From Desertivirga brevis (lineage in GTDB: Bacteria > Bacteroidota > Bacteroidia > Sphingobacteriales > Sphingobacteriaceae): 64,000 nt of DNA. Of this stretch, positions 25,983 to 40,474 are shown in pieces. Each line of letters opens with the position of its first letter. The first letter of the stretch is position 1. Made by a program: the position numbers and the translations under genes. The notes beneath the pieces were generated by a model. The model worked only from the letters and a program-made list of their open reading frames with translations. It was not told the DNA's origin and did not search any database. The stretch covers positions 310,001-374,000 of the forward strand of contig NZ_JAFEWF010000008.1 in the NCBI RefSeq assembly GCF_017355835.1, in the 5' to 3' direction.

Positions 25983-26951
25983 ATGAATTGGAATCGCTTT
26001 ACCTATTTAATAGCACTTGTTTTTTTTCTGGCGGCGTGTAAATCAAAGAATAAAGAAGTACCTACTGTTGGCTTTGTGGATGCGTTTGAAGATGCAACTA
26101 TTGAACAGGCAAAAGAAGGTTTTGTAGATGCACTAAAGAAAGAAGGGTATAGCGAGGAGAATAATACGGTTAAAGTTTTTTATAAAAATGCGCAGGGAGA
26201 CATTCCAGCCTTGACCCAAATCGTCAACTACTATCTATCCGAAAAAGTGGACCTGCTAGCTACAAGCACCACCTTATCTACCTTAACGGCACTTCAACGA
26301 ACAAAGTCTATCCCTGTTTTTATGATGGTTTCGCCCGTGCCTGCACGGATGAAGGTATTAAATGCATCGGGTAAGACTCCGGCCAATCTTTACGGAGTTG
26401 CAGAGGATCTAGCGTATATAGATACCTCTTTTACCCTTATTCCAAAAATGTTAAGGCCAAGGGGAGCGAAACTAATTGTCGGAATGATCTACAATCAGGC
26501 GGAACCCCAATCAGCAGACGCTCTTGAGCGTATAAAGTCGGTAGCTCTTCGGTATAATGTTCAGGTAGAAGCATTACCTCTTAATAGCTCGGCAGAGGCC
26601 CAGATCGTTACCCAGTCCCTTTTAAATAAAAATATTGATGCCTTTTTTGCTAATCCGGATAATACAGTATTTGCTGCTTTCGAGACTATTTTGAAAAACT
26701 GTGATAAAAAAAATGTGCCCGTGTTTACTAGTGAAGCCGGACTTGTAAAAAGGGGGGCTGTAGCAGCTTTTGGCGCCGATATTTATCAATGGGGATATCA
26801 AGCTGGAGTGCAGGCCGCTAAGTACCTGAAGTCGGGTAAAACAGAGGGACTAAACTGGGAGATGGTTAGGGTCCGTAAAAGAGTTTATAATCCTGGGGCT
26901 GCGAAGAAGTATCAAATTTCCATCCCTGCAAATTTCGAAGCAGTTAAGTAA
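25983..26951 (+). CDS. ABC transporter substrate-binding lipoprotein (TrpX/ABC_sub_bind type)
   Basis: A 322-residue periplasmic binding protein with a lipoprotein signal (MNWNRFTYLIALVFFLAACK, lipobox L-A-A-C at Cys19). The mature part follows the two-lobed ABC_sub_bind pattern: VGFVDAFEDATIEQAKEGFVDALKK, DIPALTQIVNYYLSEKVDLLATSTT, NLYGVAEDLA, KLIVGMIYNQAEPQSADALERI and AFFANPDNTVFAAFE. This family is linked to uptake of aromatic amino acids or other small metabolites. Its TAA overlaps the ATG of the permease gene (TAATG), so it is the first gene of a coupled operon. The substrate is not determinable from sequence. Confidence 0.9.
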   Translation: MNWNRFTYLIALVFFLAACKSKNKEVPTVGFVDAFEDATIEQAKEGFVDALKKEGYSEENNTVKVFYKNAQGDIPALTQIVNYYLSEKVDLLATSTTLSTLTALQRTKSIPVFMMVSPVPARMKVLNASGKTPANLYGVAEDLAYIDTSFTLIPKMLRPRGAKLIVGMIYNQAEPQSADALERIKSVALRYNVQVEALPLNSSAEAQIVTQSLLNKNIDAFFANPDNTVFAAFETILKNCDKKNVPVFTSEAGLVKRGAVAAFGADIYQWGYQAGVQAAKYLKSGKTEGLNWEMVRVRKRVYNPGAAKKYQISIPANFEAVK

Positions 26952-27820
26952 TGGACTTCTACTTAACCGCCATTTTACAAGGCCTATGTTTCTCTGGGAT
27001 AGCTTTAGGGATTTACATTTCCATGAAAATATTTAATATCCCGGATATTACTACAGACGGTAGTTATACCTTGGGAGGGGCAGTAACCGCAATACTATTG
27101 TCGTCGGGTTATTCCGCTCCTATTATATTGCCTCTAACCATGCTTGCTGGAGCTACCGCCGGCGCCTGTACAGGCCTCATCCATACAAAGCTTAAAATAA
27201 ACCCGTTGCTTTCTGGTATTCTGGTAATGACAGCCCTTTATTCTATTAATTTAAGTTTCATGGGCAGGTCGAATATTCCGTTGCTAAACTTTTTAAACCT
27301 TTATAACCTGGTCAGCATTTTTGACGACTTCAATTTGAATACGCTTATTGTTCTTCTGCTTTTTGTGGCAGTACTAACGGGCTTGATCATATATATCCTA
27401 AGTACGGATTTCGGGATCACCATGCGAGCTACGGGTAATAGCGAAACTATGATCCGTTCCCTCGGAGTGAGTACCGACAGGATGAAGATCATCGGTCTTG
27501 CTCTGGCAAATGCTTTAACAGCTACCAGCGGCTATCTGCTAGCCCAGTTTCAGGGTTTTGCAGACATAAACATGGGAATTGGAATTGTAATAGCTGGCCT
27601 GGGTTCGGTAATTATTGCAGAAACCTTTATCAATTGGTTTAATATCACCTCGGTAAGTGCCAGTTTACTTTTAGTGATTATTGGTGCCATACTGTTTCAG
27701 GCTGTGCTGGCAGTCACCTTAAGTTTGGGAGTCGATGCAAGTATGCTTAAGTTAATTACTGCAGTTTTTGTACTACTCATTGTAAGCGTACCTCAATTAC
27801 TATTTAAGAAGGCCTTATGA
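26951..27820 (+). CDS. ABC transporter permease
   Basis: A 289-residue inner-membrane permease of the LivH/BPD_transp_2 type. About eight hydrophobic helices can be traced, with an early SMKIFNIPDITTDGSYTLGGAV segment and a conserved cytosolic coupling stretch (TMRATGNSETMIRSLGVSTDRMKIIGLALANALTA). It overlaps the binding-protein gene by 1 base at its start and the ATPase gene by 4 bases at its end, which shows tight translational coupling. One permease gene implies a homodimer in the membrane. Confidence 0.9.
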   Translation: MDFYLTAILQGLCFSGIALGIYISMKIFNIPDITTDGSYTLGGAVTAILLSSGYSAPIILPLTMLAGATAGACTGLIHTKLKINPLLSGILVMTALYSINLSFMGRSNIPLLNFLNLYNLVSIFDDFNLNTLIVLLLFVAVLTGLIIYILSTDFGITMRATGNSETMIRSLGVSTDRMKIIGLALANALTATSGYLLAQFQGFADINMGIGIVIAGLGSVIIAETFINWFNITSVSASLLLVIIGAILFQAVLAVTLSLGVDASMLKLITAVFVLLIVSVPQLLFKKAL

Positions 27821-28566
27821 TCAGGATATCATCTTTAAACAAAACCTTTAACCAAGGTAGACTTAATGAGGTGCGAAGCCTTCAAAATCTTAACCTTTTA
27901 GTGGAAGAAAATGATTTTGTAGTGATTGTAGGTGCAAACGGCTCAGGTAAGTCAACCCTCTTAAATTGTATTGCCGGTAGCATATTGCCTACCTCGGGCT
28001 CAATAATCATGGACGGAACAGATGTAACTAAATATGCCGATTATAAAAGAAGTAAATGGATAGCAAGAGTTTTCCAAAACCCATTAAGCGGTACAGCTCC
28101 CGATCTGAGTATCCTTGAAAATTTTCGCCTTGCTTCGCTCCGAACGGGATCCAAAAGCCTCACGATAGGAATTAATGAAGAATTCAGGGGCCGGGTTAAA
28201 GAAAAAGTAGCTATGTTGGGAATGGGCCTTGAGGCTAAACTAGACCAGGCTATCGGAACTCTTTCAGGGGGACAGCGACAGGCATTAACCTTGTTAATGG
28301 CAACGATGGACGACCTCAAAATTCTCTTACTTGACGAACCTACCGCTGCTCTTGATCCGCGATCGGCAGAGTTGGTAATGAAAACAGCAGATAGAATTAT
28401 AAAGGACTATCGGTTGACTGCTTTAATGGTAACTCATAATATAAAAGATGCTTACACGTATGGAAATCGTGTGATACAAATGACTGAAGGTAGAGTATTA
28501 AGAGATATTAAACAGGAAGAAAAGAAAGCCCTCGAAATGCCAAGCATATATGAGTGGTTTGGATAA
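27817..28566 (+). CDS. ABC transporter ATP-binding protein
   Basis: A 249-residue ATPase. Walker A is GANGSGKST, the signature motif is LSGGQRQAL, Walker B is LLLDEPTAALD, and the switch His lies in MVTHNIKDAY. The N-terminal MIRISSLNKTFNQGRLNEVRSL and the D-loop are typical of the short, amino-acid-type importer ATPases. Its ATG overlaps the permease stop (ATGA), completing the operon. Energises the import of whatever the binding protein delivers. Confidence 0.95.
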   Translation: MIRISSLNKTFNQGRLNEVRSLQNLNLLVEENDFVVIVGANGSGKSTLLNCIAGSILPTSGSIIMDGTDVTKYADYKRSKWIARVFQNPLSGTAPDLSILENFRLASLRTGSKSLTIGINEEFRGRVKEKVAMLGMGLEAKLDQAIGTLSGGQRQALTLLMATMDDLKILLLDEPTAALDPRSAELVMKTADRIIKDYRLTALMVTHNIKDAYTYGNRVIQMTEGRVLRDIKQEEKKALEMPSIYEWFG

Positions 28567-29404: not shown

Positions 29405-30214
29405 ATGCCTTCAAACCTATCATTTAAAACTTGTCTGTTTGTGCTGATAGTATTTAAAATTCAAGCACAGGACGTCATCTCAGGGGCCAGAATTAATTCT
29501 TTAGGAAACACTGGCGTTGCTTTACAGGATGCCTGGAGTATGCAGACAAACCAGGCAGGAATCGCTGCGCTTACGAGTCCTATACTAGCTATTAGTTACC
29601 AGAATAACTTTTTGGAGACAGACATCGCAACTCAGGGTGCAATATTTATTTGTCCTTTTAAAAATAATGCTGTAGGTCTCGGTCTGCAGAATTATGGAAT
29701 ATCTGCTTATTCTGAACAAAAAATTAGTCTTGCTTATGCTAAACGTTTCGGAAAGACAGTCTTTGCCGCATTATCCCTCAATGCACATCAAGTAAAGATA
29801 GTTCAATATGGCGCGGCAAAAACATATTCTTTTGAAGCAGGTATTCAATTCAGGCCATCTCCTAAAATACTAATTGGATCCCATATTTCTAATCCTGCAA
29901 GGAACGGCTATAATAGCGAAGTTGATGCACGAATACCGACGGTTCTTGAAATAGGAGCAGCCTACGAGATTTCCGATAGGGTAATTTTTAATAGCGGATT
30001 TGTGAAAGATTTGGAATGGTTAACTGATGCAAGGTTTGGACTTGAGTACAACGCTCTTCAATGTTTGTCATTCAGGGGAGGTGTTAGTCTTAATCCTTTC
30101 AGACAATTCGCGGGACTTGGGTGCAAGTGGCAGAAGCTACATCTGGATGGTGGAGCATCTTCTCATCCAACTTTAGGTTATTCACCCCAGGTATCTATGT
30201 CTTATGAGTTTTAA
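29405..30214 (+). CDS. PorV/PorQ-like outer-membrane beta-barrel protein
   Basis: A 269-residue protein with a short hydrophobic leader (ending in QAQ, ~24) and then GARINSLGNTGVALQDAWSMQTNQAGIAAL, the start pattern of PorV/FadL-like barrels in which an N-terminal plug-like segment is followed by a 14-stranded barrel. Strand pairs such as GLGLQNYGISAYSEQKISLAYAKRFG and KILIGSHISNPARNGY fit. PorV itself is a T9SS shuttle component, but this is a distant relative. Its stop is overlapped by the next gene (11 bases), which encodes an HhH-plus-barrel protein, followed by ComEC, so a DNA-uptake role is the interesting alternative. Confidence 0.75.
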   Translation: MPSNLSFKTCLFVLIVFKIQAQDVISGARINSLGNTGVALQDAWSMQTNQAGIAALTSPILAISYQNNFLETDIATQGAIFICPFKNNAVGLGLQNYGISAYSEQKISLAYAKRFGKTVFAALSLNAHQVKIVQYGAAKTYSFEAGIQFRPSPKILIGSHISNPARNGYNSEVDARIPTVLEIGAAYEISDRVIFNSGFVKDLEWLTDARFGLEYNALQCLSFRGGVSLNPFRQFAGLGCKWQKLHLDGGASSHPTLGYSPQVSMSYEF

Positions 30215-32255
30215 AGGTCTATTACTCCTGGGTCTCCTTGTAGTACCGTTTCGCCGGGCAGTAGCTCAAACAGACCAGGATCCCATCATTGAAACGATCA
30301 TAGAATCTGTAATGGAAACTGTCGGAAATGATTTCGATTTTTCCGATTTAATAGAAAAACTAAATTTCTATAAAAAACACCCATTGGATATTAATAAGGC
30401 TAATGAAGAAAGCCTTCTTGAACTGGTGTTCCTCTCACCGCTGCAAGTGAATCAGATTATAGAATACAGAAAGGAAAACGGTGATTTTCTTGAGTTGTAT
30501 GAGCTACAGGCCGTGGATGGCCTTGATTTAGAGACTATACGCAGGTTGCTACCTTTTATTACGATTAAAAATGTTGGGACTTTACGTGGTGTATCACCAC
30601 AAAATCTTTTGCATCAAGGACGGCATGAGATTATTGTTTTGGTTGGACAAGTAATTGAAACGCAGGCGGGTTTTCAAATTAAAGATGAATCAAAATCTCA
30701 TTATCTGGGTTCTCCCCAGCGTATCCTAACGCGGTATCGATACCATTATGGCAATGGTTTATCTGCGGCTTTAACAATGGAAAAAGATGCAGGAGAACGT
30801 TTCTCTTCCAAAAGCTCTGTCCCGGGTTTTGATTTTTATTCACTCAACCTTTTTTACAAGGGAATTAATATTGTTAGAAAAATTGCCATAGGTGATTATT
30901 CTTTGCAGTTCGGGCAGGGTTTGTCTTTATGGTCAGGCCTAAGCTTTGGCAAGGGCGTTGCCGTTTCCACTATTCCTAAGGCCGAAACGGGACTTAAACC
31001 ATATAGTTCGACAAATGAAGCTCTTTTCTTCAGGGGCCTTGCAGCAACTATACAGGTGAAAAAAATAGAAATTACCCCATTTATTTCTTCTAGAAAGCTC
31101 GACGGGAGTCTTAATCAGGACGACCAGAGCGGTGAAGCGGCAATAGGGGCACTGAATGAAAGTGGGTTACATAGGACCCGTGTTGAAATTGATAATAAAA
31201 GCCAAATTAGGCAGACTGTGTACGGTATTAATACACAGTACAACTTGAACACCTTGAGGCTAGGCTTTAATTCTTATTGCACAAATTTTAGTAAATCATT
31301 TGAGATTAATAGCCAGGTGTATAGCAGTAAGGAGTTTGCGGGTAAGCAACTAAGTAATTTAGGTTTGTATTATACCTATGGCTGGCGCAACTTGTATTTA
31401 TTCGGCGAAGGAGCACACAGCTTGAGTTCCGGCTTTGCTGTTATAAATGGTGCTGTTATAAGCATGAGTCCTAAATTAGCAACAGTGTTTTTACATAGGA
31501 GCTACCAGGCCGATTTCCATTCGTTCTTCAACCAGGGGATATCGGAGGCATCCAAAGCAGTGAATGAAAAAGCATTCTATTCTGGTTTAGTTTTTACTCC
31601 AAACCGTAAGTACGAACTCTCTTCATACGTTGATTTTTTTCGCTTCCCATGGTTAAGATTTCGGGCAGATGCTCCTTCCCAGGGCTATGAACTTCTTTCA
31701 CAGTTTAGCTATACTCCCAATAAGAAGTTGAAAGCGCTAATTCGGTATAAGTTCGAGCGGAAGCAGGAGAACGACAATCTGGAGAATACAATGAATTTCC
31801 TTGAAGAAGTGCTGCGCCAGAATTATCGCATGGAGTTTAGCTATAAATTGAATGCCTCCTGCCAGTCGAGAAGCAGAGCCGAGGTTACAAGCTTTAAAAA
31901 AGGAGGAGCTAATAAGGAATTTGGATTTCTTCTTTACCAGGATATGATCTTTAATCCGATGCGCTCTAAGGTAACAGGAAACTTCCGGGTGGCACTGTTC
32001 GATACCCAAAGTTTTAATTCAAGGATCTACGCTTATGAGAATGATGTTTTGTATGGTTTTTCTGCCCCAGCTTATCAAAATCAAGGTCTTCGTTTTTACA
32101 CAAACGTAAGATACAGGTTATTAAAGGAAATGGACGTTTGGTTTAGATATTCAATCACTAGTTATTCTAATATAGATGAAGTGGGTTCGGGACTTGACAA
32201 AATATCTGGGAATAAAAAATCAGATTTCAAAGTACAATTAAGACTTCAGTTTTGA
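30204..32255 (+). CDS. Helix-hairpin-helix domain plus outer-membrane barrel protein
   Basis: A 683-residue protein with a signal peptide (~1-21, VPFRRAVAQ), a short linker, then a ComEA-like helix-hairpin-helix block at ~61-120: PLDINKANEESLLELVFLSPLQVNQIIEYRKENGD, then LYELQAVDGLDLETIRRLLPFI. The usual Gly-x-Gly hairpin turns are weak (F-L-S-P, V-D-G-L). The remaining ~550 residues are strand-rich with aromatic ends and look like a large outer-membrane barrel. It overlaps the PorV-like gene upstream (11 bases) and the comEC gene downstream (4 bases). A barrel carrying a periplasmic DNA-binding-type domain next to ComEC suggests DNA import; this is inference. Confidence 0.8.
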   Translation: MSFKGLLLLGLLVVPFRRAVAQTDQDPIIETIIESVMETVGNDFDFSDLIEKLNFYKKHPLDINKANEESLLELVFLSPLQVNQIIEYRKENGDFLELYELQAVDGLDLETIRRLLPFITIKNVGTLRGVSPQNLLHQGRHEIIVLVGQVIETQAGFQIKDESKSHYLGSPQRILTRYRYHYGNGLSAALTMEKDAGERFSSKSSVPGFDFYSLNLFYKGINIVRKIAIGDYSLQFGQGLSLWSGLSFGKGVAVSTIPKAETGLKPYSSTNEALFFRGLAATIQVKKIEITPFISSRKLDGSLNQDDQSGEAAIGALNESGLHRTRVEIDNKSQIRQTVYGINTQYNLNTLRLGFNSYCTNFSKSFEINSQVYSSKEFAGKQLSNLGLYYTYGWRNLYLFGEGAHSLSSGFAVINGAVISMSPKLATVFLHRSYQADFHSFFNQGISEASKAVNEKAFYSGLVFTPNRKYELSSYVDFFRFPWLRFRADAPSQGYELLSQFSYTPNKKLKALIRYKFERKQENDNLENTMNFLEEVLRQNYRMEFSYKLNASCQSRSRAEVTSFKKGGANKEFGFLLYQDMIFNPMRSKVTGNFRVALFDTQSFNSRIYAYENDVLYGFSAPAYQNQGLRFYTNVRYRLLKEMDVWFRYSITSYSNIDEVGSGLDKISGNKKSDFKVQLRLQF

Positions 32256-34366
32256 AAGGTATAGTTTATAAAGGCGAGCTTGTCTTTGTTCGAATATTGG
32301 TTCCGGTGATGTTGGCCATTATTATTGGATTAATTTTCCCACAACCGGGGCTGTTAATTATAGCATCTCTAATTGCTCTGCTTTCTTTCGTATGCCTAAT
32401 TATTCTTTGGCTTATGTACAACAGGCTGCAACTCTATATGAATAAATGGATGGCCGGTTGTATTCTTCACCTATTTCTTTTTTTTCTAAGTCTTTCTATT
32501 ACCTTGTCTAAAATAGACGCCATTCAGCCCACTTATTTTGGAAAAGTTCAGGCACAAGGATTTTTAATAAGGGTGGCGTCTGAACCGAGATATTCAAAGG
32601 GTCTATTTAGATTTGAGGCGCAGGTGCTTAGGGCATTCGTGGGAAAGGGGTTTAAACCTGTAAGAGGGAAACTTCAAGTTGCTGTTAAAGCAAATGAAAA
32701 GAGCACAATAAGGTACGGAGACGAGCTTTTAATTCCTGTAAAGTTATCTGAAATAGAGCCGCCGTATAATCCATTCGAATTCGACTACAAGAAATATCTT
32801 TCTCATCAGGGAATAGAGAAGCAAGCTTTCCTTAATGCCAATCAATTTAAAATTGTCGGAAGGCAGAAAGGTAATCCTTTGATTTCTTACAGCTTAAAGG
32901 TTCGAAAACAGCTTGTTGCCGGATTTTCTGAATACATAAAAGATAAGCAAGCAGCAGCCTTAGCCTCTACTCTAATCTTAGGATATAAAGCAGAGTTAAG
33001 TTCTGAGATAATAACTGCATATTCTAAGACAGGGACTATGCATGTTTTATCAGTTTCGGGCATGCATGTGTTACTGGTGTTTTCCATATTCACGTTCTTG
33101 CTATCATTCCTCGATAGAAATGTTTGGCTACGCGTATTTAAAGTTACCTTAATCATAGCACTTATTTGGTTCTATGCTATGTTAACCGGGTTCTCGTCGG
33201 CTGTATGCAGGGCTGCGGTGATGTGCACAATTTATGTAATTGGTAAAACCTTTAATAAGAGAACCAATTCTTACAATACACTTGCTGCCTCTGCCTTTTT
33301 GCTGCTCATTTATAATCCTTTTTTTCTTCTAGATGCAGGGTTTCAATTATCTTACCTCGCGGTTGCTGGCCTGATCTACCTGTATCCTAAAGTGAAGCAT
33401 CTCTTCTTCTTTAAGAATAGGATTTTCGACACTATCTGGAGTTGGACCGCTGTTTCTGTCGCTGCTCAACTTGCTACTCTGCCTCTCAGTCTGTATTACT
33501 TTCATCAATTTCCCGTGTATTTCCTTCTTAGTAACCTTTTTATCATCCTACCAGTTCAGTTAATCATGTATGCAGGTATTGGATTCTTGGCATTATTTTC
33601 TTTCAGCCAAGTCATCCCTCAGGATTTTTTGGAAGCTATAGGAGAAGTATTAAACAGTTGTATTCAATGGACAAATGATGGATTGATCACTATTCAGAAC
33701 CTTTCATTCTCTAGCCTGAACTTCTACCCCTATGGTGCGTTTTACTATTTGTTTTTCTTTGCCGCCGCTTTATTACTGCTTATTTCAATTCAAATTAGAA
33801 AGAAGAAAATTCTGTTCTTATCCTTATCTCTCCTAATATTGATCGTTTCTTATACCTCTTACGAACAGATTAAACGAAGTGGAGAGGAGCAAGTTATAAT
33901 CTACAGTTTGCGAAAGAACCGTGCTATTGCTTTTTTTTCTAAAGGTCAGTGCTGTTTATATACAGATCTTCAACCCAACGACAAGACCTTTGCTTTCTCT
34001 ATTCAGCCTTCTGTCAGTGCTTTTGCTTCCAGGATAAATGTGGTCAATTCTTCTTCGCACGCTAATGTCGACAGTGCATATAATCATTTTCTAGTTCTTG
34101 GTGGTTGGCGATTAATGATCTGGGATAGGTTTTGGAAGAAAAAGGACTTTAGAAAGCGGGTGAAGGTTAACGCTGTTTTAATAACTGATAATCCCTGGAT
34201 CAAATTACAAAAATTGAATGAAGATGTAGAGTTTTCATTAGTATTGATCGATGCAACAAACAAGGAATACCGGATAAATCAATGGGTGCAACAGGCACGT
34301 GAACTGGGGATAAAGTATTATGTCTTAAAGCAGAATCCTGCGTTTAGGATTGTTCTAAAGTCCTGA
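32252..34366 (+). CDS. comEC: ComEC/Rec2 family competence protein (short form)
   Basis: A 704-residue multi-spanning inner-membrane protein that starts with TTG, overlapping the previous stop (TTGA). N-terminal ~50-210 holds two membrane helices and a DUF4131-like OB-fold region (VRGKLQVAVKANEKSTIRYGDELLIPV). The Competence domain (~220-500) includes the diagnostic TGTMHVLSVSGMHVLLVFSIF and GFSSAVCRAAVMCTIYVIGK. The C-terminal ~200 residues show no HxHxDH metallo-beta-lactamase motif, as expected for the short Bacteroidota form. ComEC forms the DNA-uptake channel across the inner membrane. Co-transcription with the HhH/barrel gene is very likely. Confidence 0.9.
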   Translation: MKGIVYKGELVFVRILVPVMLAIIIGLIFPQPGLLIIASLIALLSFVCLIILWLMYNRLQLYMNKWMAGCILHLFLFFLSLSITLSKIDAIQPTYFGKVQAQGFLIRVASEPRYSKGLFRFEAQVLRAFVGKGFKPVRGKLQVAVKANEKSTIRYGDELLIPVKLSEIEPPYNPFEFDYKKYLSHQGIEKQAFLNANQFKIVGRQKGNPLISYSLKVRKQLVAGFSEYIKDKQAAALASTLILGYKAELSSEIITAYSKTGTMHVLSVSGMHVLLVFSIFTFLLSFLDRNVWLRVFKVTLIIALIWFYAMLTGFSSAVCRAAVMCTIYVIGKTFNKRTNSYNTLAASAFLLLIYNPFFLLDAGFQLSYLAVAGLIYLYPKVKHLFFFKNRIFDTIWSWTAVSVAAQLATLPLSLYYFHQFPVYFLLSNLFIILPVQLIMYAGIGFLALFSFSQVIPQDFLEAIGEVLNSCIQWTNDGLITIQNLSFSSLNFYPYGAFYYLFFFAAALLLLISIQIRKKKILFLSLSLLILIVSYTSYEQIKRSGEEQVIIYSLRKNRAIAFFSKGQCCLYTDLQPNDKTFAFSIQPSVSAFASRINVVNSSSHANVDSAYNHFLVLGGWRLMIWDRFWKKKDFRKRVKVNAVLITDNPWIKLQKLNEDVEFSLVLIDATNKEYRINQWVQQARELGIKYYVLKQNPAFRIVLKS

Positions 34367-36063: not shown

Positions 36064-36082
36064 CTAATGAATTTTAAAATTT

Positions 36083-36440
36083 ACAGGCCTGTAAGCCGGG
36101 TTCTGTTCCGACAAGTCGGATTCTATCATTTATCTAGGCCGGTCATTGCTGACCGGCTCAAACGACCTACCCACCAGCTCGGACGGGCAGCCCTTAGCGC
36201 TGGCTTATTTGGTCTTTCAACTCCTGGGGTTTACCGCAATGCATGTCGCCATGCAAGGCCGTGAGCTCTTACCTCGCGTTTTCACCCTTACCCTGAAAAA
36301 TCAGGGCGGTATATTCTCTGTGGCACTTTCCGTAATACAGTCAAGCCGTATCCCTTCCCGTTAGGAAGCAGGATGCCCTTTGTTGCCCGGACTTTCCTCT
36401 TTTCGCTCAAGGCGAACAGCGATAGAACGGCCTGCGGAGG
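36083..36440 (-). ncRNA. rnpB: RNase P RNA, bacterial class A
   Basis: Read on the minus strand, the 5' part carries the conserved CR-I block GAGGAAAGTCCGGGC (around 36405-36390) and the 3' part carries ACAGAACCCGGCTTACAGGCC. CAGGCC near 36436 and GGCCTG at the 3' end (~36085-36090) can form helix P1, which sets both ends. Length of about 358 nt is normal for the class A catalytic RNA that trims the 5' leader of pre-tRNAs. The exact ends are estimates from P1 pairing. Two plus-strand ORFs running through this region are not genes. Confidence 0.95.
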
Positions 36441-39448: not shown

Positions 39449-40474
39449 TTAATAGAAGTCGTAGCATTTAACATCCCCAAATCCACTTTCCCGGGGTTCA
39501 CCTGTTTCAAAACCGACGCTCATCTCTGAGGAACCGTTAGTGTTTCCATAACTTACTTTTCCCGTTGATGCATCGTGACTTACGCCTAAACGTACTTTCT
39601 GGTTCTTAAAGGGATTGGTGAAGATGTCGAAGATCAGGGAAAGCACGAGTGACTCATTAGCTCCTTTTCCGGTCGACCTGTACCACAAACCAGCGTTTAC
39701 GCCTCGTTTTTTAAACTGTAGTCCGGCACTGAAAGAAGTTGCCTGGGCCTGCTTATAATAAATAACGGATGGAATAAGGAAACTTCCAGATTCATCATAG
39801 GGATCGTAGCGATCAAGCGCATAACGATAGCTGGCATGTACGGCTGTCCGGATTGGAGTAGGAAGGGATGATCCTGTAAAAGATTCATTTGGCTTGTTCA
39901 GGTGAAGCATGGAAGTGCCAACCATCGCGTTACCCATCACCAAATTTACTCCAGCACCAGCATCAAAGTAGTACTTACTATTAGTAACAGGAATTTCTGC
40001 TAGTGAGGCCGAACCCCCTAATCCAGTTCTTGGGTCTATCTGATCTGAGAAAACGAATTTGCTGAAATCCACGCTGCTATTGGTTATTCCTGCCTGTAAA
40101 CCGAAAGAAGCCATAAAACGTCCTCCTCCAACATTGTAAGAATAGGTTCCGGCTATGTTGTTTTTTTTAAGGTAGGCAGTTCCCTCATTAGAACTGTTTA
40201 CCATCAAGCCTACTCCTCCGTTAATGTTTTTGAACTGGTAATCTGCAGAAGCAGTAAGGTAGCTCAGATCACCTTCCATGGCACTCCATTGATTTCGATA
40301 GATCATATTCATTCGGAACGCTCCTTTGAACTGTCCTGTTAAGGCAGGGTTCAAATATATCGGTGCATTGTAGAACTGGGAGTAAATATAGTCTTGCGCC
40401 TGGGCTATTCCCGAAATGGCGGTCAGGGCAAGCATTAATAAAAATTTCTTCACTGGTAAACCTCTCCTCATCAT
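39449..40474 (-). CDS. PorP/SprF family type IX secretion-associated protein
   Basis: A 341-residue paralogue of the window-start PorP (386-1390). Signal peptide to about 27 (ISGIAQAQ), then DYIYSQFYNAPIYLNPALTGQF and a barrel-like rest with GGVGLMVNSSNEG, GAGVNLVMG, LGVSHDASTGKVSYGNTNG, and the same C-terminal CYDFY. Its ATG overlaps the stop of the CHU_C giant gene upstream by 4 bases (ATGA), giving translational coupling. It probably helps secretion or anchoring of that giant protein. Confidence 0.93.
   Translation of the reverse strand: MMRRGLPVKKFLLMLALTAISGIAQAQDYIYSQFYNAPIYLNPALTGQFKGAFRMNMIYRNQWSAMEGDLSYLTASADYQFKNINGGVGLMVNSSNEGTAYLKKNNIAGTYSYNVGGGRFMASFGLQAGITNSSVDFSKFVFSDQIDPRTGLGGSASLAEIPVTNSKYYFDAGAGVNLVMGNAMVGTSMLHLNKPNESFTGSSLPTPIRTAVHASYRYALDRYDPYDESGSFLIPSVIYYKQAQATSFSAGLQFKKRGVNAGLWYRSTGKGANESLVLSLIFDIFTNPFKNQKVRLGVSHDASTGKVSYGNTNGSSEMSVGFETGEPRESGFGDVKCYDFY

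Follow-up and report, generated by a model that had tools for sequence, protein, structure and literature searches.

A PorV-like protein and a predicted helix-hairpin-helix barrel beside comEC in Desertivirga brevis: a candidate route for DNA through the outer membrane of Bacteroidota

Three overlapping genes and their predicted products

We analyzed a window of 64,000 nucleotides from Desertivirga brevis (contig NZ_JAFEWF010000008.1, positions 310,001 to 374,000 of the forward strand), in which three overlapping genes encode a PorV-like protein, a large protein that joins a helix-hairpin-helix (HhH) domain to a predicted outer-membrane barrel, here called the HhH-barrel protein, and ComEC. 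An earlier note on this DNA had described the three genes and proposed that they form a module for DNA uptake; their open reading frames (ORFs), all on the + strand, indeed overlap by 11 and by 4 bases. The features of the locus, numbered from the first base of the window, are these:

29405..30214, + strand: PorV-like gene from the ORF list, 269 residues; outer-membrane protein of FadL/PorV fold, 14 strands predicted
30204..30214, + strand: 11-base overlap of the PorV-like and HhH-barrel genes
30204..32255, + strand: HhH-barrel gene, an ORF of 683 residues, modeled with AlphaFold2
30204..30266, + strand: likely signal peptide, residues 1-21, followed by Q22; called by eye from the sequence, with a model helix at 3-17 and a predicted local distance difference test score (pLDDT) <50 at 19-25
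30375..30569, + strand: degenerate HhH domain, residues 58-122, with D108 in hairpin 2 and hairpin 1 without G-x-G (PF12836 HHH_3 at 58-120)
30621..32249, + strand: predicted outer-membrane barrel of ~24 strands, residues 140-682
32252..32255, + strand: 4-base overlap, TTGA, of the HhH-barrel and comEC genes
32252..34366, + strand: comEC, 704 residues, TTG start (PF03772, PF13567)

The TTG start of comEC is supported by relatives of the locus, because their HhH-barrel/comEC junction reads ATGA (loci L003, L004, L005, and L046) or TTGA (L001) at the same place, and the three-gene arrangement is not a product of chance, since it recurs in relatives. The third gene was rightly named comEC: its product matches Competence (PF03772, 195.4 bits; cut-off 23) and DUF4131 (PF13567, 95.1 bits; cut-off 31.6), and scores 121.5 bits, under the cut-off of 190.05, against the full ComEC/Rec2 model TIGR00361. 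A passage of PMC6299819 gives Competence plus DUF4131 without the lactamase-like domain as the main ComEC profile of Bacteroidetes.

The AlphaFold2 model of the HhH-barrel protein, built on 86 aligned sequences (mean pLDDT 87.9; predicted template modeling score 0.85), is helical up to residue 138 and holds 24 strands of at least 9 residues within residues 140 to 682, as counted with DSSP. Solved outer-membrane barrels match it, FimD being aligned over residues 127 to 683; among the matches listed, identity to the FimD/PapC ushers and AlgE stays below 13% and no non-barrel fold appears, the HhH part not having been searched alone. By sequence, Pfam finds nothing over cut-off outside HHH_3, and the solved relatives cover the HhH part only (three matches, two of them named ComE operon protein 1). 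The protein thus models as an HhH domain fused to an outer-membrane beta-barrel resembling the ushers. The earlier note had suggested this fusion and structure prediction as its check, and the prediction returned an N-terminal HhH domain and a C-terminal barrel, not a non-barrel fold. Two apparent fusions to extra domains, in L131 (1042 residues) and L140 (926 residues), were rejected on reading the DNA, where a high G+C content leaves frames open over a long distance. At L009 (2290-3675, + strand) the barrel gene lies in two open frames on a contig of a metagenome-assembled genome (MAG), by frame break or assembly error, and was excluded from the alignment.

A further property of the predicted barrel is the charge of its lumen. 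When the more hydrophobic parity of each strand is taken as outward, 142 positions point inward, and over the 86 sequences these carry a mean of 26.4 K/R versus 17.0 D/E (net +9.4, range +2 to +15); the predicted lumen is net positive in 86 of 86 by this rule, which is one of hydropathy parity and not an electrostatic calculation, and which had a single other barrel as control, the PorV-like one at net -0.7. Conservation within the barrel strands is 0.60 at inward versus 0.40 at outward positions. An electropositive lumen of this kind would therefore suit a negatively charged polymer.

The upstream gene had been read as a FadL/PorV-like barrel, and its AlphaFold2 model (pLDDT 92.2) sustains that reading: a predicted barrel of 14 strands of at least 8 residues carries N-terminal hatch-like helices, as in the FadL/PorV fold, and Foldseek places FadL structures among the best solved matches, together with a chain of a type IX secretion system complex. 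In that fold the N-terminal helices act as a hatch. The match to NF033709 PorV_fam (E 3.2e-10, 40.1 bits) falls below the cut-off of 90, and Pfam gives no match up to E 1.

Gene order and co-occurrence across Bacteroidota

Our survey of gene order drew on 118 relatives in a contig scan, of which 80 loci were kept, and on 60 chosen neighborhoods from a search of 296 Bacteroidota genomes. Across the phylum, 103 of 137 loci with 600 bases or more of upstream sequence (three others had none) carry the PorV-like gene immediately ahead of the barrel gene and in the same orientation. The conserved unit across Bacteroidota is the PorV-like gene plus the HhH-barrel gene. Other recurrent neighbors among those scanned are clade-specific (electron-transfer flavoproteins, DUF4835, Lgt, ScpB, a pseudouridine synthase, a citrate-type transporter, and a TonB-type receptor). 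At five Dyadobacter/Telluribacter loci (L048, L049, L055, L065, and L066) the upstream gene is nadC-like by eye, with no PorV-like gene in the fetched flank.

We scored presence of the barrel at E<1e-40 (216 genomes) and at E<1e-15 (227 genomes), and used the latter split of 227 barrel-positive to 69 barrel-negative genomes; the thresholds were chosen after the E-values had been seen, and the tally of 271 genomes at 1e-3 includes other HhH proteins. The PorV-like protein (E<1e-20) is present in 150 of the 227 barrel-positive versus 1 of the 69 barrel-negative genomes. On a ComEC tree of 84 chosen genomes, enriched in barrel-negative ones, the barrel and the PorV-like protein agree in a mean of 3.5 of the 5 independent pairs and never go opposite ways, which is not significant.

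The Sphingobacteriaceae (in the NCBI sense) are the family of Desertivirga arenae, the closest named relative, and we sampled 81 of their genomes. The barrel is present in 70 (six of them divergent, E 1e-19 to 5e-23) and comEC in 74; both occur in 68, the barrel only in 2, which are assemblies of 1.0-1.5 Mb, comEC only in 6, and neither in 5 (Fisher 3.3e-4, a value that, like the other Fisher values given here, ignores descent). Of the 68 genomes that have both, 65 carry the two genes on a common strand no more than ~2.1 kb apart, and in 57 the barrel match stops 500-1,000 bases short of the Competence domain, again with both on that strand; the exceptions to linkage are G327 (16 kb), G362 (40 kb), and G351 (other contig). 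With so few exceptions, the comEC operon counts as a stable trait of the Sphingobacteriaceae rather than a local accident. Six genomes of 1.3-2.0 Mb (G314, G332, G345, G354, G364, and G374) have a strongly diverged barrel, in open frames of 500-638 residues, beside comEC.

Proposed role and rival readings

We propose that the HhH-barrel protein is a polyanion channel in the outer membrane, served by its PorV-like partner, and that it probably passes DNA on in the direction of ComEC; we judge this proposal to be evenly poised. From the computed folds, conservation, charges, gene order, and co-occurrence, we infer a complex, its gating, its substrate, the direction of transport, and DNA uptake itself as follows. 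On the pattern of SprA-PorV, the two proteins would together form a transport module in the outer membrane, with the large barrel and its electropositive lumen as the channel and the 14-strand FadL/PorV-type protein as its partner. The acidic N-terminal region with the degenerate HhH would sit at or in the periplasmic end as a plug, gate, or docking domain, and rather than this domain a distinct ComEA-like protein of the multi-HhH kind would bind DNA in the periplasm. In the Sphingobacteriaceae, the pair would be co-expressed with ComEC and would most likely carry DNA across the outer membrane for it. The DNA-uptake module of the earlier note is favored by the predicted barrel fold and by comEC linkage in this family, and disfavored by the lack of that linkage phylum-wide; the role is plausible and unproven.

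Several observations weigh against this proposal, beside the parity rule, the choice of thresholds, and the descent-blind statistics already described. Of the 127 loci with 1,500 bases or more of downstream sequence, 9 have comEC immediately after the barrel gene, and these are all window-like relatives (L001-L005, L046, and L105-L107); elsewhere the neighbors are mostly unrelated genes. With this count, a place for comEC in the ancestral unit is rejected phylum-wide, and outside the Sphingobacteriaceae the homologs lie mostly away from comEC, an outcome that had been named in advance as speaking against the module; the neighborhood check suggested by the earlier note therefore comes out in favor within the family and against across the phylum. 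Moreover, comEC is near-universal (288 of 296 genomes). Its association with the barrel (226/227 barrel-positive versus 62/69 barrel-negative, Fisher 1.9e-4) counts in favor of the proposal, but its presence in as many as 62 barrel-negative genomes shows that comEC does not generally require the barrel. One deletion of adjacent genes could account for the joint loss in the Sphingobacteriaceae. To these points must be added an SLBB/Poly_export gene at +1 in one clade (6 loci, one of them scanned) and the degenerate hairpins and acidic charge of the HhH region, given below. Among the eight comEC-less genomes, seven (G177, G217, G225, G256, G268, G280, and G288) also lack a strong barrel match, and G270 has one; the seven may be one clade, because their SprA scores are similar.

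The chief rival, which we consider unlikely but far from negligible, is that the pair moves another polyanion or envelope molecule, such as an acidic polysaccharide, a lipid-linked sugar, or a teichoic-acid-like polymer, by export or import, and that the comEC operon is incidental. The Poly_export neighbor would suit polysaccharide export, but it occurs in one cluster only, and no recurrent glycan gene appears in the other clusters scanned. Nor would an incidental operon readily explain why comEC linkage with overlapping starts has been kept across the family despite strongly diverged barrels.

An improbable second rival assigns the pair to the world of type IX secretion, as a module for protein transport or surface anchoring in which the PorV-like protein is the carrier and the barrel its docking partner. 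In its favor are the predicted PorV/PorQ-type fold of the PorV-like protein and the way in which that protein tracks SprA, which is found in 140 of 151 PorV-like-positive versus 87 of 145 PorV-like-negative genomes. The barrel itself runs against SprA: of the 227 genomes among the 296 that have SprA, 159 fall among the 227 barrel-positive and 68 among the 69 barrel-negative ones. It is not confined to SprA genomes either, as the SprA_N match is absent in 68 of the 227 barrel-positive genomes; 11 of these have the PorV-like protein, and the other 57 lack it too. The 11 weaken the notion that the PorV-like partner depends on type IX secretion, and G012 keeps the barrel-comEC overlap with no SprA match and no PorV-like match.

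The HhH domain bears on the last rival. The G-x-G hairpins of HhH domains make the contact with the DNA backbone. In the HhH-barrel protein, Pfam HHH_3 matches residues 58-120 (E 2.8e-11, 43.8 bits; cut-off 27), and the whole-protein comEA model TIGR01259 gives 29.6 bits, far under its cut-off of 152.35. The earlier note had seen that the classical G-x-G is missing, and the loss proves to be family-wide: hairpin 1 has G at neither position 76 nor 78 in any sequence (0/86), and hairpin 2 keeps both in 1/86, with D at position 108 in 68/86. The N-terminal region is acidic as well, residues 26-125 averaging 6.7 K/R and 17.5 D/E over the 86 sequences, with a mean net charge of -3.0 for residues 58-122 and -8.0 for residues 26-57. 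A separate multi-HhH protein of ~318-418 open codons is present in 10 of the 10 barrel-bearing genomes looked at, and a pattern search finds its GIG hairpin in 9 of the 10 fetched loci, with a net charge of 0 to +2 around the hairpin.

The HhH-barrel protein resembles ComEA in its HhH fold, its likely export, and its position beside comEC in the Sphingobacteriaceae. It is unlike ComEA, a short COG1555-type protein, in its length of 683 residues and in an acidic, barrel-fused HhH without G-x-G, and it is not a ComEA member by either whole-protein model or hairpin residues. The NCBI name 'ComEA family DNA-binding protein' on the nearest relative, and the JGI label of one relative as a DNA uptake protein, both stem from the HhH match. 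Judged by its residues, canonical DNA binding by the barrel's HhH is unlikely, and the domain is best understood as a fold put to another use rather than as a clamp on DNA. The ComEA-like hand-over of DNA that the earlier note had foreseen is accordingly not borne out, because G-x-G is lost, the region is acidic, and a separate multi-HhH protein is present; nor does anything in the analysis show the direct link between the two membranes that it had imagined. That the HhH is nevertheless a true periplasmic DNA binder, pulling DNA from the barrel to ComEC, is very doubtful on the same three grounds, for all its similarity to HHH_3 and TIGR01259, the NCBI name, and the comEC linkage in the Sphingobacteriaceae.

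Known systems and the Riemerella-type pair

In layout, the pair resembles SprA-PorV, in which a large barrel likewise has a 14-strand PorV-type partner, and in purpose perhaps a DNA-uptake pore. SprA is a 36-strand protein (PMC10994853), unlike the window barrel; the pair is partly kept without SprA, and neither the Pfam scan nor the sequence search of solved structures reported a match of SprA to the 683-residue protein. BamA-BamG of Flavobacterium johnsoniae also joins a 14-strand FadL-family protein to another barrel, but that large barrel is a different one and serves BAM function (PMC12611786). The FimD/PapC ushers and AlgE are barrels whose fold the predicted one may share; the ushers handle pilins and AlgE handles alginate, unlike the role proposed here. 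Besides SprA-PorV and BamA-BamG, the pair would be another apparent example in which a barrel of FadL/PorV type serves as partner to a bigger one. We found no published study of the HhH-barrel family in open-licence PubMed Central papers.

A widely conserved two-gene module that stands beside comEC in one family is a candidate for the entry of DNA through the outer membrane in Bacteroidota. For Porphyromonas gingivalis, a passage of PMC11532111 states that DNA import into the periplasm 'remains unclear'. The best 120 relatives of the barrel include Paludibacter and a Porphyromonadaceae MAG, and none from P. gingivalis, no search for the barrel having been aimed at P. gingivalis or Riemerella anatipestifer themselves. 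In R. anatipestifer, markerless deletions reported in PMC8459023 show that transformation depends on RA0C_RS04915 (a barrel with a carboxypeptidase-regulatory domain) and RS04920 (DUF5689/DUF5017), and its authors describe these genes as having no homolog in the well-known machinery. Both pairs couple a predicted outer-membrane barrel to a partner and are proposed to pass DNA; the Riemerella pair has a CarboxypepD_reg-type N-terminus, a DUF5689 partner, and no HhH, and its need in transformation rests on deletions (PMC8459023), whereas that of the window pair is a prediction.

Among 14 chosen genomes, strong DUF5689 matches (E<1e-47) occur in 7 of 8 barrel-negative versus 0 of 6 barrel-positive ones, the latter six showing weak matches or none. 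A protein of 909-975 residues lies upstream of the DUF5689 gene in 7 of 7 loci, with CarboxypepD_reg-like domains in the three scanned; these genes are equated with the Riemerella ones by domain content and adjacency, with no Riemerella sequence compared. A profile (A3) made from the seven proteins detects the pair in 45 of 296 genomes at E<1e-100, the next best genome scoring 2.5e-69, and these comprise 6 of the 227 barrel-positive versus 39 of the 69 barrel-negative genomes (Fisher 1.4e-23), a complementarity that counts in favor of our proposal. We looked upon a place for the Riemerella-type pair beside comEC in barrel-negative genomes as a candidate and rejected it; the recurrent neighbors of comEC there, labeled by eye, are a dipeptidyl-peptidase-like protein, a peptide transporter, and LpxB-like and SurE-like proteins.

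A bolder form of our proposal, which we hold tentatively and would sooner expect to be wrong than right, is that the electropositive HhH-barrel and its PorV-type partner are the long-missing, pilus-independent outer-membrane DNA channel of much of Bacteroidota, gated by a DNA-mimicking acidic remnant of a ComEA-type HhH, and that in Flavobacteriales-like lineages its place is taken by the CarboxypepD_reg/DUF5689 pair of Riemerella type. On the tree the complementarity comes from few events, 5 changes of the barrel and 6 of the Riemerella-type pair; nearly all of 200 pairings yield 0 to 2 informative pairs, in which the two systems go opposite ways, and this is not significant. Strict mutual exclusion is rejected, as 6 genomes carry both and the tree has so few informative pairs. 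One genome (G279) has the Riemerella-type pair and no barrel within a group of barrel-positive genomes. The pattern hints at replacement and goes no further.

Divergent from the Riemerella-type barrel gene stands a gene for a PF19580 Exo_endo_phos_3 nuclease-type protein at L190 (684-1742, - strand) and L192 (5078-6157, + strand), and similar proteins of 353-372 residues occupy that site in five of the seven loci (L190, L192, L194, L195, and L196). This protein could be a DNase partner of the Riemerella-type pathway.

Elsewhere in the window, positions 25983-28566 (+ strand) encode an ABC transporter of three genes (a PF04392 substrate-binding protein, a PF02653 permease, and an ATPase), positions 39449-40474 (- strand) a look-alike of the PorP/SprF type from the type IX secretion world, labeled by eye, and positions 36076-36438 (- strand) a class A bacterial RNase P RNA (275.5 bits).

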